From: a bacterium
Lineage (GTDB): Bacteria; Coprothermobacterota; Coprothermobacteria; Coprothermobacterales; JAADFF01
Direction of reading: 5' to 3'
DNA: 7,239 nt
Assembly: GCA_027063755.1 (NCBI GenBank)
Contig: JAMORD010000092.1
Coordinates: 1 to 7,239, forward strand
The position numbers and the translations under genes are program-made. Shown in pieces: positions 2,106 through 7,239 of this stretch (within the stretch, counting starts at the first letter, position 1; every line of letters begins with the position of its first letter). The notes below the pieces were generated by a model. The model was not told where the DNA came from. It did not search any database and saw only the letters and a program-made list of their open reading frames with translations.

Positions 2106-2136
2106 GTATAGAAACTATATATTTACTTAGTCTTTA

Positions 2137-2170
2137 TACAATGGCCGATAAAATCGGCCATTGTATTTTT
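2137..2170 (+). terminator. Rho-independent terminator after the stalk-protein gene
   Basis: A perfect 13-bp stem (2137-2149 pairing with 2153-2165) with a 3-nt AAA loop is followed by a run of five T. It isolates the stalk-protein gene from the downstream cluster. Confidence 0.92.
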
Positions 2171-2261: not shown

Positions 2262-2291
2262 TTGTTTGTATTGTTTATCACCTTATATAAT
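2262..2291 (+). promoter_or_regulatory. Probable promoter of the cysteine-rich peptide cluster
   Basis: A perfect -10 box TATAAT (2286-2291) is preceded, with an 18-bp spacer, by TTGTTT (2262-2267), a partial match to the -35 consensus. Transcription would begin near 2298, almost exactly where the 54-bp tandem repeat begins (2297). The leader would then be only about 29 nt before the first ATG. The weak -35 could mean that an activator is needed. The remaining spacer 2171-2261 is A/T-rich with nothing else recognisable. Confidence 0.5.
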
Positions 2292-2296
2292 TGCGG

Positions 2297-2423
2297 TTTG
2301 TAAACCCAATGAAAGGAGGTGTTAATATGAAGGAGTTGTGGTATGATTACTTTGTAAACCCAATGAAAGGAGGTGTTAATATGAAGGAGTTGTGGTATGA
2401 TTACTTTGTAAACCCAATGAAAG
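2297..2423 (+). repeat. 54-bp tandem direct repeat (2.35 copies) carrying RBS and start codon
   Basis: Copies lie at 2297-2350 and 2351-2404 and are identical over all 54 bp. A third partial copy of 19 bp (2405-2423, TTTGTAAACCCAATGAAAG) follows. The period is 18 codons, so the repeat is in frame. Each full copy contains the ribosome binding site AAAGGAGGTG (2312-2321 and 2366-2375) placed 5 nt before an ATG (2327 and 2381). The structure is A-B-A-B-A with A=19 bp and B=35 bp, which is what recombination or slippage between two flanking A copies would generate from A-B-A. Confidence 0.95.
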
Positions 2424-2809
2424 ATATAGTTAAGCCTTTGTTGATGTGCGTTATAGTTGGTGCCGTATTCCTATCTTTCTTGTCATTTATTCCCAATGTT
2501 TCTGCTGACACAAAGCCTTTACAACCACATGTTTGTGGTGCTGCAAAAGCTGATAGTAGCAATTCCCATCTAAGTAATAAACTCGGCCATGGCAATGTTG
2601 TTCTTCCAACTTCTGGTAATGTAGCTTGCAATGGAGATTGTGTGAAAACTGGTGATTATTGTTATAGGTGTGAGGGGGCTTGTCCGCATAATCCCGGAAT
2701 GGTAAGTCAGCTTATTGGGACCGAGAAGGCTTGTTTGTGGAATGGAATTCCCCGCAGGGCTTGTTGTGATCCTTGGACTACATACTGCACAGTACATTGC
2801 ATGGAATGA
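2327..2809 (+). CDS. Cysteine-rich secreted peptide precursor, bacteriocin-like; two alternative in-frame starts
   Basis: From ATG 2327 the product is 160 residues, and from the equally good ATG 2381 it is 142 residues. Both starts have the same ribosome binding site. The extra 18 residues only duplicate the N-terminal segment. Numbering from the shorter form, a polar region of 18 residues precedes a hydrophobic core (19-38) and a likely SPase I site NVSA|D after Ala42, leaving a mature part of exactly 100 residues. That part has 11 Cys, at mature positions 10, 41, 45, 52, 55, 59, 76, 86, 87, 94 and 98, including an adjacent Cys pair. This pattern fits a disulfide-knotted or metal-binding secreted peptide. 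A permease and ABC ATPase of bacteriocin-associated type follow directly, which suggests an antimicrobial or signalling peptide. I do not recognise the family. An internal ATG at 2417 would give a normal 30-residue signal peptide but has no ribosome binding site. An upstream TTG at 2291 lies before the predicted transcript start. Confidence 0.85.
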   Translation: MKELWYDYFVNPMKGGVNMKELWYDYFVNPMKDIVKPLLMCVIVGAVFLSFLSFIPNVSADTKPLQPHVCGAAKADSSNSHLSNKLGHGNVVLPTSGNVACNGDCVKTGDYCYRCEGACPHNPGMVSQLIGTEKACLWNGIPRRACCDPWTTYCTVHCME

Positions 2810-2823
2810 GAGGTTAGATAGAT

Positions 2824-4872
2824 ATGAAGGGAATGAAGGTTGTCATATATACCCTATTTTTTCTGATATTTTTCCTGGTTGCCGATTTAGTAAGTATATT
2901 TACCCCTATCTTGGTAGGAGATGTATATATTCAAGGTAGACCAGTTCCCGGCGATGGTAGAGTTATTTACCGCTATCCTATGAAGACATACCTCAAGCAT
3001 AATTTGATGTATAAAACACCAGAACTGTCTGTGGGACTTATATCTGCAAGAGTTGCCAGAACAACCTCTATACTCAATGGTTTAGATGCACAAAGTGTTC
3101 TAACTGGTGTTCTAAGTGGTCAAACTGCGACTAAACTTATAAACTCGGCCCATAATCACAATGTAAAGATAGCAGTAGCCGTTGAGTACTATATAGGTCT
3201 TGATGTAAAGGATGTTATGATAGGTGATAATATTTTTCAAGCTTGTTCTTCATCTTCTCCTGTAATTCTGTCATCGTTATCGTTTATGAGTAACTCTTGC
3301 AAACCAGAGGGGTATCAATGGGTAGACGATGCTAATTTTCCTTATAGTTCTAAAATAAAATACATATTTGTGAAGGGTAATTACCGTGATATAAAGAAAT
3401 TTTTAAGAGATAATGGTATTAATCTTGTGACTCCCTCTTATTTTGGGGGGATGTTTTTCCTTAACTTTTCTTTGGGGTTGCTGGTTTTTTCTGTGGTATT
3501 ACTACTTATCACAATTATCGCTTATGTGTCCATGTTACGAATGAGTATACGTAAGGATGTTGTGAAAAATTCTAGAAGGTTCTTTGTGTATTATGCTTTG
3601 GGAAGATCTTTAAGGGATTTGTCTTTGTGGGCTTTATCTATGGAAATGTTGCAAGTGTTTTTGGCTATAATATTTGCTTGGTTGCTTGACAGGATCTTTG
3701 ATGAAATTAGGTATATACCACTGTCTCATGCTTTAACCTTTGTGATGGGGTTAAGGGGTAAAGTTGCGTACTATTATATTGCTCCCTCCATAACTTGGAG
3801 ATTAATATTGGTAGTTTTCTTTGCATTGTTTGTGGCTCTCTTCTTTTACTATTTATTCCGTGAGGATTTAAAGGGTGCATTTTACCGTCGTGGTGTAGCT
3901 GTTTTGCCATCTTCAATTATTGTTACACTATCGTTTGTAGTAACATCCGTGATGATTATTCTTGCTATATGGGGGGTAACGGTTTTTACCCGTTTGCATC
4001 TAATACAATCTGTCTATTCTCCTTCTGGCTATGTGGTCCAAGACAACGACCTAGAGCTATCTCTATTAGATGGCCATTCCATGAGACAGCTTGTTAAAAG
4101 TGGCAGTGTTTCTTTGGCAAGGGTTATATTTGTGGCCTCTGAAAATACCTTATATACATGCTATACCCCCGATATGAAAAGCTTTATAGATAGGCAGCTA
4201 CCGTTAATTAATACACTCTGGGCAGATGGAAAGGCACAAGTGATTCATGATTGCCGAAAAATTACTAATAGCATACTGTATGCAGATGGAGTATTGGATA
4301 TAACATATGTTCCATCTAATCAGGTAGATAAGTTTGTTGGTGCATATATCTCCATTAAAGCTCAAATGCATAATGAAATTGTTAAGCACGCAGGTGTTAA
4401 TAGTAGTTTTAATGCCAATCAGTTAAAAGAAAATATCAGGTACATGTTCTATAGGGCTAATAATAAGATTAATAGGGCGATGGAGAGGGGATACTTTATA
4501 TTTCTTTCATTCTCTCTTGTTAGTTTGCTTATCTTTCTGGCTTTTATGATAGCTATAGCTGAGATTATGTTAAAGCTTATGCCATTCCGTTTGGCGGTTT
4601 ATATGATAAGTGGCTACACCTTGAGGCAAGGGTTAAAGTCTATGATGTCAAGGCTGCTTAAGTGGATTACTCTTGCATCTGTAGTGGGAGGGTTGCTTGG
4701 GTATTGGTTAGCTACTATTATATGGCGTAAGTTGGGATGGAATTTCCCTTCTGCTATATGGGTGTTGGCTGTTGTTATATTTATTCCTGCTGTTAGTTAT
4801 CTTGGTATGGAACTGGCAACATTGCGTTTAAGAAAAGAAGGAGTCGTGAAGATCCTTAAGGCCGATCTATGA
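2824..4872 (+). CDS. Bacteriocin-associated ABC permease (DUF1430-like, FtsX/MacB-type)
   Basis: This 682-residue membrane protein has about eight helices, near residues 6-31, 213-239, 266-287, 327-346, 363-390, 556-583, 613-633 and 643-665. Two large extracytoplasmic domains (about 32-212 and 391-555) give two similar halves, each being helix, ectodomain, three helices. Each half carries an LG/SG-type coupling helix after its second helix (YYALGRSLRD at 256-265 and YMISGYTLRQG at 593-603). The C-terminus (LRKEGVVKILKADL) is typical of FtsX/MacB-like permeases. Length and layout match the bacteriocin-associated integral membrane proteins found beside lactococcin-972-type peptides. It should pair with the ATPase encoded next, for export of or protection against the peptide encoded just upstream. 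The only four Cys residues (141, 159, 446, 477) fall two per ectodomain, which suggests one disulfide in each. The start is ATG 2824 with GAGAGGT at 2808-2814 overlapping the upstream stop, so coupling is likely. Family assignment is from pattern memory. Confidence 0.85.
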   Translation: MKGMKVVIYTLFFLIFFLVADLVSIFTPILVGDVYIQGRPVPGDGRVIYRYPMKTYLKHNLMYKTPELSVGLISARVARTTSILNGLDAQSVLTGVLSGQTATKLINSAHNHNVKIAVAVEYYIGLDVKDVMIGDNIFQACSSSSPVILSSLSFMSNSCKPEGYQWVDDANFPYSSKIKYIFVKGNYRDIKKFLRDNGINLVTPSYFGGMFFLNFSLGLLVFSVVLLLITIIAYVSMLRMSIRKDVVKNSRRFFVYYALGRSLRDLSLWALSMEMLQVFLAIIFAWLLDRIFDEIRYIPLSHALTFVMGLRGKVAYYYIAPSITWRLILVVFFALFVALFFYYLFREDLKGAFYRRGVAVLPSSIIVTLSFVVTSVMIILAIWGVTVFTRLHLIQSVYSPSGYVVQDNDLELSLLDGHSMRQLVKSGSVSLARVIFVASENTLYTCYTPDMKSFIDRQLPLINTLWADGKAQVIHDCRKITNSILYADGVLDITYVPSNQVDKFVGAYISIKAQMHNEIVKHAGVNSSFNANQLKENIRYMFYRANNKINRAMERGYFIFLSFSLVSLLIFLAFMIAIAEIMLKLMPFRLAVYMISGYTLRQGLKSMMSRLLKWITLASVVGGLLGYWLATIIWRKLGWNFPSAIWVLAVVIFIPAVSYLGMELATLRLRKEGVVKILKADL

Positions 4873-4885
4873 GGGGGAATGGGAT

Positions 4886-5557
4886 ATGGAGATTATAAAG
4901 CTTGAATCTATTGAGAAGTATTATCGTACCCGTTATGAAGAAGTGCATGCCTTAAGAGGTGTGAGTTTATCTGTCAATGAGGGAGAAAAAATTGTTGTGA
5001 TGGGGCCTAGTGGTAGTGGAAAAAGTACTCTTCTGCACATTTTAGCGTTTTTAGATAATCCGGATGATGGCAAGAGATATATTCTTGGTGAAGATAAGAC
5101 ACAAGTTGGTGATACAGAGGCGGCAAGACTTAGAAGAGATATGTTTGGATTTGTATTTCAAGAGTTCAATATTATACCGGAAATGACAGTAGAAGAAAAT
5201 GTGCAGTTGCCATTGAAGATAAAGAAAGTGCCACTTGCAGAACAGAAAAATTATGTGGAAAAAGCACTAAAAGCTGTAGGACTTATTGACAAGAGGAACA
5301 GAAAGGCATATGAGCTTTCTGGGGGAGAAAGACAAAGAGTGGCTATAGCTCGGGCTGTAGCTAGTGATAGCAAGGTACTTGTCATGGATGAGCCAACAGG
5401 TAACTTAGATGAGGAAACGGAAAAGGAAATTGTCAAACTCATACTCGGCCTGAATGAGCAGGGTAAAACCCTTGTTGTGGTGACCCATAGCGATAGATTG
5501 GCTCGTCTTATAGATGGCAAGTTGTATCACATGGAAGACGGAAAACTTTATAAGTAA
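4886..5557 (+). CDS. ABC transporter ATPase (MacB/LolD-type, bacteriocin-associated)
   Basis: This 223-residue nucleotide-binding subunit has every motif: Walker A GPSGSGKST (40-48), Q-loop Gln92 in GFVFQEFN, signature LSGGERQRVAIARA (144-157), Walker B with catalytic glutamate KVLVMDEP (163-170), D-loop NLD (173-175) and H-loop His201. A length near 220 and the FGFVFQ/IIP pattern place it in the MacB/LolD/FtsE group, whose members power mechanotransmission or export through FtsX-like permeases. It should bind ATP at the cytoplasmic face of the permease encoded immediately upstream. The intergenic gap is 13 nt, and its ribosome binding site GAGGGGGAA (4871-4879) overlaps the permease stop codon, so the two are translationally coupled and probably made at matched levels. 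No motif is missing. Confidence 0.95.
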   Translation: MEIIKLESIEKYYRTRYEEVHALRGVSLSVNEGEKIVVMGPSGSGKSTLLHILAFLDNPDDGKRYILGEDKTQVGDTEAARLRRDMFGFVFQEFNIIPEMTVEENVQLPLKIKKVPLAEQKNYVEKALKAVGLIDKRNRKAYELSGGERQRVAIARAVASDSKVLVMDEPTGNLDEETEKEIVKLILGLNEQGKTLVVVTHSDRLARLIDGKLYHMEDGKLYK

Positions 5558-5580
5558 ATAGAAAAGGGGGATGGATCAAC

Positions 5581-5910
5581 ATGGATAGCAGATGTGGTTT
5601 TGTGTCTTTAAAGGAATTGCTGGAGATAGCGGATATATTGTGTAAGTTTTTCTCAAAGTACGATTGGGAGAAAAATGGGAATACTAAAGATATTATTCGT
5701 TTGGTAAGTGAGCTTGCTGAGCCATATCAGCCTGTAAATAAAACTTATGCCGAGGATATGATTAGAGATTGTCTACAGAACCTTAAGCAACATTCAGGAG
5801 CAAAGGTCTTTGTATTTGGGGGAACAGAGGAAGACATGTGGGTTGCCACATGGGTAGGAAGAGTAGACGCTACAGACATATTAGCCCTTGTGTATCTTAA
5901 AGTGTGCTAG
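5581..5910 (+). CDS. Small soluble protein of unknown function, candidate immunity or accessory protein
   Basis: This 109-residue protein has no signal peptide or membrane helix, so it is probably cytosolic. The N-terminal 65 residues look helical (LKELLEIADILCKFF; TKDIIRLVSELAE; YAEDMIRDCLQNL). The last 35 residues look like beta strands (AKVFVFGG; DMWVATWVG; ILALVYLKVC), giving a small alpha+beta fold that ends in a C-terminal Cys. I do not recognise the family. It starts 23 nt after the ATPase, with AAAGGGGG at 5563-5570 ahead of ATG 5581. A nearer ATG at 5571 opens only a five-codon frame. Its place between the ABC pair and a second secreted protein would suit an immunity protein or a regulator of the system, but nothing in the sequence proves it. 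Confidence 0.75.
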   Translation: MDSRCGFVSLKELLEIADILCKFFSKYDWEKNGNTKDIIRLVSELAEPYQPVNKTYAEDMIRDCLQNLKQHSGAKVFVFGGTEEDMWVATWVGRVDATDILALVYLKVC

Positions 5911-5943
5911 GAATACTATGTTGATTATGCCAAGGGGGGAAGT

Positions 5944-6978
5944 GTGTTGAAAAGGTTGTTCATTGGTTTGATTGTATCTAGTGTGTTTTTTTCTGTTGTG
6001 ATAATCTTGACATTTAGTGTATCTTTGGAAGTTAACGGGCAAACTTTTGTATGCCGTGGAGCATGGAATGTATGGAGATTTTATAACAGATTAGGTGAAG
6101 TGGCGGATCTTATTTACATATCAAGTGAAGATATAGATACTGGAGATATTTATGAGCGTTTAGATGCTATGTGTTATGGTTCCGAGAAGAAATATGAGGA
6201 AGTTATGGGAAAATATATATCGGCAGTTTTAAAGAGTGGTAAAGCAGTTTGGGATCAAGAGAGTTGGAGTAATTCGCAAATAGTAAATAAATGGTTAGAT
6301 ACACATGGTACTATCAGATTAAATAACACGCCCAGTGTCTTCCTGACGGGAAGCGGTTATGGTACTTTGAGGCTTAAAGAACCGGAAATGGAGCTAGGTA
6401 GTCCTTTAGCAAAGGTGAAGTTTAGAGGTACTATAAAGATTACAAATTATGGCAATAAGGTGTATGCAAGAATAGAAAAGTTGGAAATAGGTAAGCCTTG
6501 GGGAACAGGGACATGGATATTTACAGATGATAATTGGCCATGTTGGATAGGAGCAGCCAAGGATAAAGGAAGAAAGGAATATGGTAGCTTTCAATGGTAT
6601 GGTACTGCGTTAGGGTTGTTTAGATATCATACAGACACTCATCATGTTGGACCACCGGAGACCAAGCTTGTGGAGGCACAATATGCCGATGGAAGAGGTA
6701 AGACGGTAATGATTAGGATGCAGAATGGGGACTCTGCTGTTGCTAAAGTGGGTTATCATGCCGAGGTTGTATGGCAGGGTAGTATAAACTTGGGTGTTAA
6801 CTTGGGATGGGTGAGTCAGCGTGGTTCTGGAGTAAGTGCTGGGATCTCTATTCCCTTTGTGACTTCTCATCGTTGGGACCCGTATATAGGGATTCGGCTT
6901 GACATGGATAGAGATGGTGCCATACAGTGGCAGAGTGTAGTTGAAAGTCCTGATAAAAATCCAGGTTGGTGCAATTGA
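5944..6978 (+). CDS. Secreted or membrane-anchored protein of unknown family, Trp/Gly-rich C-terminal half
   Basis: This 344-residue protein begins with basic residues and a hydrophobic helix (5-28), and no clear SPase I site follows. It is therefore either exported with an unusual cleavage near VNGQ (30-33) or held as an N-terminal membrane anchor facing outward. The region about 37-135 looks mixed helical. From about 140 onward it looks beta-rich with many aromatic and Gly residues. There are four Cys (37, 77, 200, 343), with the last at the penultimate position. A His/Asp cluster (H229, D231, H233, H234) and a DxDxDG loop (D320, D322, D324, G325) could bind metal, the latter Ca2+. The ribosome binding site AAGGGGGGA (5932-5940) could serve GTG 5944 or the adjacent TTG 5947, which is better spaced, giving 343 residues. 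As last gene of the cluster it could be a second effector or a maturation or surface-retention factor. The family is unknown. Confidence 0.8.
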   Translation: MLKRLFIGLIVSSVFFSVVIILTFSVSLEVNGQTFVCRGAWNVWRFYNRLGEVADLIYISSEDIDTGDIYERLDAMCYGSEKKYEEVMGKYISAVLKSGKAVWDQESWSNSQIVNKWLDTHGTIRLNNTPSVFLTGSGYGTLRLKEPEMELGSPLAKVKFRGTIKITNYGNKVYARIEKLEIGKPWGTGTWIFTDDNWPCWIGAAKDKGRKEYGSFQWYGTALGLFRYHTDTHHVGPPETKLVEAQYADGRGKTVMIRMQNGDSAVAKVGYHAEVVWQGSINLGVNLGWVSQRGSGVSAGISIPFVTSHRWDPYIGIRLDMDRDGAIQWQSVVESPDKNPGWCN

Positions 6979-6984
6979 TTGTTA

Positions 6985-7016
6985 AAGCCCCTCTCTTTAT
7001 AGAGGGGCTTGTTTTC
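6985..7016 (+). terminator. Rho-independent terminator ending the five-gene cluster
   Basis: A perfect 10-bp stem (6985-6994 with 7001-7010, AAGCCCCTCT) with a 6-nt loop is followed by GTTTTC. It begins 6 nt after the stop codon of the last gene, so it marks the end of the transcription unit that starts near 2298. Confidence 0.92.
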
Positions 7017-7122: not shown

Positions 7123-7150
7123 TTGACGAGGATACAAAAGCTGGTATACT
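7123..7150 (+). promoter_or_regulatory. Strong extended -10 sigma-A promoter
   Basis: TTGACG (7123-7128) and TATACT (7145-7150) are separated by 16 bp, and the -10 box is preceded by TGG (7142-7144), giving the extended -10 TGn motif. Transcription would start near 7157, at the first base pairs of the predicted outer stem of the RNA that follows. ATACAAAA occurs twice (7107-7114 and 7132-7139) around the -35 box. Confidence 0.75.
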
Positions 7151-7155
7151 AATAA

Positions 7156-7239
7156 CTGCCTGCCTGGGGAGAGAGAAAACCGGGCACGGCGAGAGAGCGG
7201 GAACGCGACCAAGCAGGGGACGAAAGGAAAAGGCAGTGA
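7156..7239 (+). ncRNA. Probable structured RNA or leader, 5' part, unidentified (truncated by the window edge)
   Basis: Directly downstream of the extended -10 promoter the sequence becomes G+C-rich and contains no T at all from 7166 to 7236 (71 nt), unlike the A/T-rich surroundings. CTGCCT (7156-7161) can pair with AGGCAG (7231-7236) as a closing stem. Inside it, CCTG (7163-7166) can pair with CAGG (7214-7217), and GCG/CGC (7197-7199 with 7204-7206) encloses a GGAA loop of GNRA type. I compared it from memory with common riboswitch and ncRNA classes and found no match. A GTG at 7236-7238 preceded by GAAAGGAAA could instead start a coding region, which would make this a leader. Confidence 0.45.

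Follow-up and report, generated by a model that had tools for sequence, protein, structure and literature searches.

The window analysed here spans contig C92 from end to end (7,239 bp) and is part of a 1.5-Mb genome assembled in 251 contigs and estimated to be 88% complete; its assignment to that genome is based on binning, on the presence of a related surface protein in G001, a sibling species, and on a homologous gene set on a second contig, C102. Five open reading frames follow one another on the plus strand, with gaps of 13-33 bp and a purine-rich stretch resembling a ribosome-binding site ahead of each: a predicted Cys-rich exported peptide precursor (2381-2809, 142 aa), a permease with eight predicted transmembrane segments (2824-4872, 682 aa), an ABC ATPase (4886-5557, 223 aa), a predicted soluble protein (5581-5910, 109 aa) and a protein whose N-terminal hydrophobic segment suggests that it is anchored or secreted (5944-6978, 344 aa). 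This content and order agree with the initial annotation, which had also bounded the unit by a promoter at 2262 and a terminator at 6985. The right limit stands, as a hairpin scan places a terminator-like hairpin at 6985-7010 on the plus strand, but the promoter is weak: the possible site at 2262-2291 (plus strand), read from the sequence, consists of TTGTTT (three of six consensus positions), an 18-bp spacer and TATAAT (six of six, 2286-2291), and is missing from the list returned by the consensus scan. Promoter-like sites as a whole show no enrichment (19 observed against 24.2 in shuffled sequences). On the left, the unit is limited by the terminator-like hairpin of the upstream gene (2136-2166, plus strand, a 14-pair stem followed by a T tail), which is stronger than the one on the right. 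Third-position GC in the genes of the unit is 0.33-0.38, compared with 0.43 in their neighbours. No gene for a regulator or a processing enzyme lies within the window, and no repeats beyond chance flank the five-gene unit.

Several other features were noted in the same contig. Positions 780-2105 encode a predicted secreted protein of 441 aa with a C-terminal copper-amine-oxidase-N domain, whose N-terminal part has a relative on contig C73 of G001, and a perfect consensus promoter (TTGACA-17-TATAAT) lies at 717-745. At the opposite end (7123-7239), a promoter-like TTGACG, 16-bp spacer and TATACT, with a TG ahead, precedes 89 nt of G+C-rich sequence that outperforms shuffled sequences in folding (z -3.2), is closed by ACUGCC/GGCAGU and is cut by the contig end. 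This stretch matches no Rfam family and is possibly a new structured RNA.

The peptide precursor carries a predicted signal sequence (2381-2506, plus strand, with a hydrophobic stretch at 19-37 read from the sequence) and a predicted mature part of 100 aa (2507-2806, plus strand) that begins after the putative cleavage site ...NVSA|DTKP. The secreted 11-Cys peptide proposed at the outset is borne out in the predicted product, which holds 11 Cys in the 100 residues after this site, some of them in CxxC and CxxxC spacing (C83, C87, C94, C97 and C101) and two forming an adjacent pair (C128-C129). An alternative in-frame start at 2327 would add 18 aa. A feature overlooked in the initial annotation is a perfect 54-bp tandem duplication (2297-2404, plus strand, two copies), in which AAAGGAGGTG, the ATG and the opening codons of the peptide gene recur in frame, with two in-frame ribosome-site/ATG units preceding the gene. 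The peptide gave nothing usable in Pfam, NCBIfam, PHROGs or PADLOC. In line with the earlier suggestion that it falls outside the lactococcin-972 family, it matched no Lactococcin_972 profile in Pfam or NCBIfam, hhalign against six real members returned a probability of 0.09%, and the W..G / S.Y.H...K.H..T pattern conserved in lactococcin-972 peptides is absent from it. A resemblance of SNSHLSNKLGHGNVV to the lactococcin SNYHHGSKTHSATVV was considered and dropped, as the profile comparison gave it no support. What the peptide does appear to share with that family is the Sec-type signal (a predicted VSA|D site) and a unit with no recognisable modification-enzyme gene.

The permease is predicted to comprise TM1, a first outside domain, TM2-5, a second outside domain and TM6-8. 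Its segments (7-25, 217-235, 270-288, 327-345, 364-382, 558-576, 615-633 and 644-662) coincide with those of LclB (8-26, 159-177, 207-225, 240-258, 279-297, 542-560, 590-608 and 613-631) and of three other permeases, all with eight segments in some 650-700 aa. The description of this protein as DUF1430-like therefore holds for its membrane topology but not for sequence membership: no DUF1430 or TIGR01654 match was obtained, nor anything else usable in Pfam, NCBIfam, PHROGs or PADLOC, and an hhalign comparison with DUF1430 gave a probability of 0.24%, with small alignments and a method that also misses the DUF1430-MacB relationship. Across the phylum TIGR01654 scored above its cut-off in none of nine genomes, compared with one of 14 control genomes. 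Both halves of the permease align in register with the MacB hinge region at weak hhalign p values (0.019 and 0.023), within a range of 0.004-0.023, likewise weak and in register, for the FtsX-fold comparison. A single-sequence model of the permease reached a pLDDT of 41, and its fold search gave no useful match.

The ATPase is the sole gene of the five that matches a known family, and its earlier assignment to the MacB type is confirmed (PF00005, E 4.2e-36; LolD, 214 bits). It belongs to the MacB/LolD/lactococcin-972-ABC type and appears LolD/TIGR03608/FtsE-like while scoring under every curated NCBIfam cut-off shown, with LolD at 214 bits and TIGR03608 ('putative bacteriocin export ABC'), the second-ranked model, at 206.6 bits; the TIGR03608 cut-off of 254.85 bits is also missed by the ATPase of the C102 set (177.3 bits). 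For both ATPases the best NCBIfam models are LolD, FtsE and TIGR03608, as for an ATPase partner of type VII systems. When placed in a tree alongside the ATPases of lactococcin-972 and MacAB loci, the two are sisters (99/98), and together they group with the lactococcin-972 ATPases at only 81/81. Identity to MacAB-type ATPases reaches 47%, about as close as anything outside the source genome, and the nearest ATPases in relatives sit in ordinary MacB-type or MacAB loci.

For the last two genes, nothing usable was found in Pfam, NCBIfam, PHROGs or PADLOC. The 344-aa protein probably lies outside the membrane beyond its N-terminal segment, as judged from its sequence. The 109-aa protein belongs to no known family; its single-sequence structure model was poor and of low confidence, and the corresponding fold search returned noise. 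Two short matches, one of the 344-aa protein in C40 (E 0.012) and one of the 109-aa protein in G048 (E 0.0012), were taken as chance.

A search of the source genome with the window permease retrieved one relative, missed in the initial annotation, on contig C102 (L021). There, on the minus strand, a Cys-rich open reading frame with 17 Cys in 134 aa (5838-5434) lies directly upstream of a permease 23% identical to that of the window (5422-3275), which is followed by an ATPase 53% identical to its counterpart (3262-2573). Order and membrane layout are as in the window, with one marginal extra permease segment. Alignment scores between the two Cys-rich peptides are within the range of shuffled sequences. 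The C102 peptide has a signal-like stretch in frame with its Cys-rich body but without a usual start codon; an ATG and basic n-region lie one base off frame, and the two frames part at seven consecutive G (minus strand, ~5903-5895). This offset may reflect phase switching, with the copy switched off, decay or a sequence error. In ~900 kb of G001, only 15 of 898 mechanically called open reading frames of 90-220 aa reach such a Cys density, and on inspection these resemble ferredoxin-type proteins or out-of-frame readings. A Cys-rich frame ahead of both permeases is hence unlikely by chance, and the proposed association of peptide, permease and ATPase, which recurs in diverged form elsewhere in this genome, is more than coincidence. 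The proposed five-gene set fares less well: its order holds in the window, but the genes for the 109-aa and 344-aa proteins are absent from the C102 set, so that the conserved core consists of three genes and the two unknown genes accompany the peptide in the window only.

Comparison with the sibling species revealed how the C102 set is placed. In G001 the flanks of the set are contiguous, forming an empty site: positions 1712-2800 of locus L065 correspond to C102 1008-2096 (86% identity) and positions 2762-3231 to C102 6046-6515 (93%). These two matches overlap by 39 bp, and the 39-bp sequence, TGCGGTATACTATCTATGAAAATACCTTTAAAGGGGGGA, occurs as a perfect direct repeat in C102 (2058-2096 and 6046-6084) and as a single copy in L065 (2762-2800), identical at all three places. 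With direct repeats at both ends and one copy at the empty site, the 3.95-kb C102 set constitutes a discrete insertion, and mobility is directly evident for this copy. The insert carries just three genes, with no integrase inside, and its GC content is 36%, compared with 41% in G001. For a transposon target duplication, 39 bp would be a long repeat; the length is nearer to what a circle would leave behind on integrating by site-specific recombination or by a single crossover. A misassembly could also explain the structure but is less probable. The gene adjoining the insertion resembles, we presume, that for 2-amino-3-ketobutyrate CoA ligase. At the downstream end of the insert (L021 2097-2572) there is no clear gene, and the segment may be a decayed minus-strand reading frame. 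Searches of G001 (93% complete) found neither a relative of the permease nor, at E <= 1e-40, a match to the ATPase. The empty site of the window's own unit was not located, because the window's MFS gene and right flank found no match in ~0.9 of the 1.4 Mb of G001.

The distribution of the system is narrow. Among 386 genomes, chosen largely as single representatives of families and with nine from the phylum, neither a permease profile nor an ATPase search found relatives outside the source genome, and searches with the peptide, the 109-aa and the 344-aa proteins, in up to 386 genomes, gave nothing convincing beyond it. A protein-pattern scan and an ATPase motif scan of 84,980 species genomes were both empty, although scans of this kind detect only close relatives or exact motifs and distant relatives may exist; plasmids, phages and viral contigs likewise yielded no relatives. 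The gene set is lineage-specific, undescribed in the libraries searched and more than a chance assembly.

By analogy, these observations may describe a lineage-specific, horizontally gained bacteriocin-like system in which a secreted disulfide-rich peptide is paired with ABC-based self-protection. This is the best supported of the readings considered, and we place its chances at about even. It draws on a gene order and 8-TM layout equal to those of lactococcin-972 loci (pBL1 and other plasmids), on TIGR03608 as the second NCBIfam model of the ATPase, under cut-off, on the second diverged set with its own Cys-rich frame directly upstream, on the 3.95-kb insertion between 39-bp repeats at a site that is empty in G001, and on third-position GC below that of the neighbouring genes. 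Gene pairs that diverge fast and are narrowly spread would also suit peptide weapons. Set against this are the lack of a sequence relation to any known bacteriocin, two peptides that cannot be aligned above chance, a window that encodes neither a regulator nor a processing enzyme, the frame offset of the C102 peptide, disulfides that are putative in a strictly anaerobic host, and a role for the lactococcin-972 permease and ATPase that is itself only presumed (PMC11796350).

Secretion, disulfides, killing and protection are steps that we infer, and they could be ordered as follows. The peptide would be made with a Sec signal and cleaved at ...NVSA|DTKP, releasing a disulfide-rich or metal-binding product of ~100 residues that would inhibit close relatives. 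It has been noted that no specialised exporter is needed where a Sec signal is well predicted (PMC12345188). The permease and ATPase would form a type VII ABC complex of the MacB/FtsX superfamily that takes no part in carrying the peptide across the membrane; ATP would instead move its outside domains, so that the peptide is pulled or kept away from whatever it targets in the envelope of the producing cell. By the same analogy, the ABC pair could help to free the peptide rather than guard the producer. The three-gene core would travel as one unit, while the 109-aa and 344-aa proteins would act as cytosolic and surface partners, possibly contributing extra immunity. A more far-reaching version, which we regard as doubtful, is that of a new mobile class: a Sec-exported, disulfide-rich or metal-binding bacteriocin of Coprothermobacterota-like thermophiles with its own MacB/FtsX-type complex, unrelated by sequence to DUF1430, travelling as a cassette of three genes flanked by 39-bp repeats, with peptides that diverge past recognition and an ATPase that is conserved. 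To our knowledge, no bacteriocin has come from this deep-branching thermophilic lineage.

Three other accounts were weighed. The peptide might be a secreted Cys-rich protein that binds metal or sulfide or belongs to the surface layer, with the ABC pair acting as a MacB/LolCDE-like pump for its release or for the transport of metal or lipid. The CxxC/CxxxC spacing, the identity of up to 47% between the ATPase and MacAB-type ATPases and the anaerobic-digester habitat of the cultured relative (PMC4022818) fit such a role, but the two peptides share Cys content only, the distribution is mobile and patchy, and no MacA-like adaptor adjoins the genes, unlike in most MacAB loci of relatives; we consider it unlikely. 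A rather unlikely arrangement, which bears on the composition of the unit, is that peptide, permease and ATPase form one system and the last two genes are accessory cargo, for instance an immunity or surface gene, joined by insertion. The C102 set with its three genes argues for this, as do the gaps of 23 and 33 bp before the 109-aa and 344-aa genes compared with 13-14 bp inside the core. However, no promoter or terminator above chance separates these genes from the core, and third-position GC of the 344-aa gene (0.336) equals that of the core genes (0.335-0.337), the 109-aa gene standing at 0.38.

Type VII ABC proteins can serve as sensors, as BceAB does, and this precedent, together with the co-encoded 109-aa cytosolic partner, would allow a signalling role in which the Cys-rich peptide serves as a pheromone or as the ligand of a sensor, the MacB/FtsX-type complex senses or relays it and the 109-aa protein belongs to the relay inside the cell. 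We find this quite improbable: no kinase, regulator or transducer of another kind is encoded in either locus, a pheromone of ~100 residues and 11 Cys would be a large one, and the C102 set lacks the 109-aa gene. Should the bacteriocin-like reading be correct as a system parallel to lactococcin-972, the ABC pair, rather than the peptide fold, would be the common part of such loci, and this one genome offers two independent peptide/permease pairs for a comparison of cross-protection.

Among known systems, the closest counterparts are the lactococcin-972 loci (pBL1 of Lactococcus lactis, the streptococcin B genes scbABC and mediterrocin), in which a Sec peptide is followed by an 8-TM permease and an ATPase. 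The same order on one strand is found in the window and on C102, and the earlier observation that the first three genes copy it extends to the permease layout when six plasmid loci, pBL1 included, are compared. In contrast to those loci, the peptide here has 11 Cys and none of the family pattern, the permease has no detectable DUF1430 similarity and the window unit carries two extra genes. For lactococcin-972-type permeases and ATPases, immunity and transport are presumed, with no experimental proof in any organism (PMC11796350). The MacB/LolCDE/FtsEX (type VII) superfamily shares the ATPase type and, at weak p values, hinge segments in register with those of the permease, but here two permease halves are fused in one chain, a peptide gene lies upstream and there is no MacA adaptor gene. 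Extra small genes also join the three-gene core in the YxeA-bearing lactococcin-972 variants of Macrococcus and Staphylococcus plasmids, although YxeA lies between permease and ATPase in these variants, whereas the 109-aa and 344-aa genes follow the ATPase and match no family. By analogy, the locus most likely works like the lactococcin-972 loci without being a member of their family.
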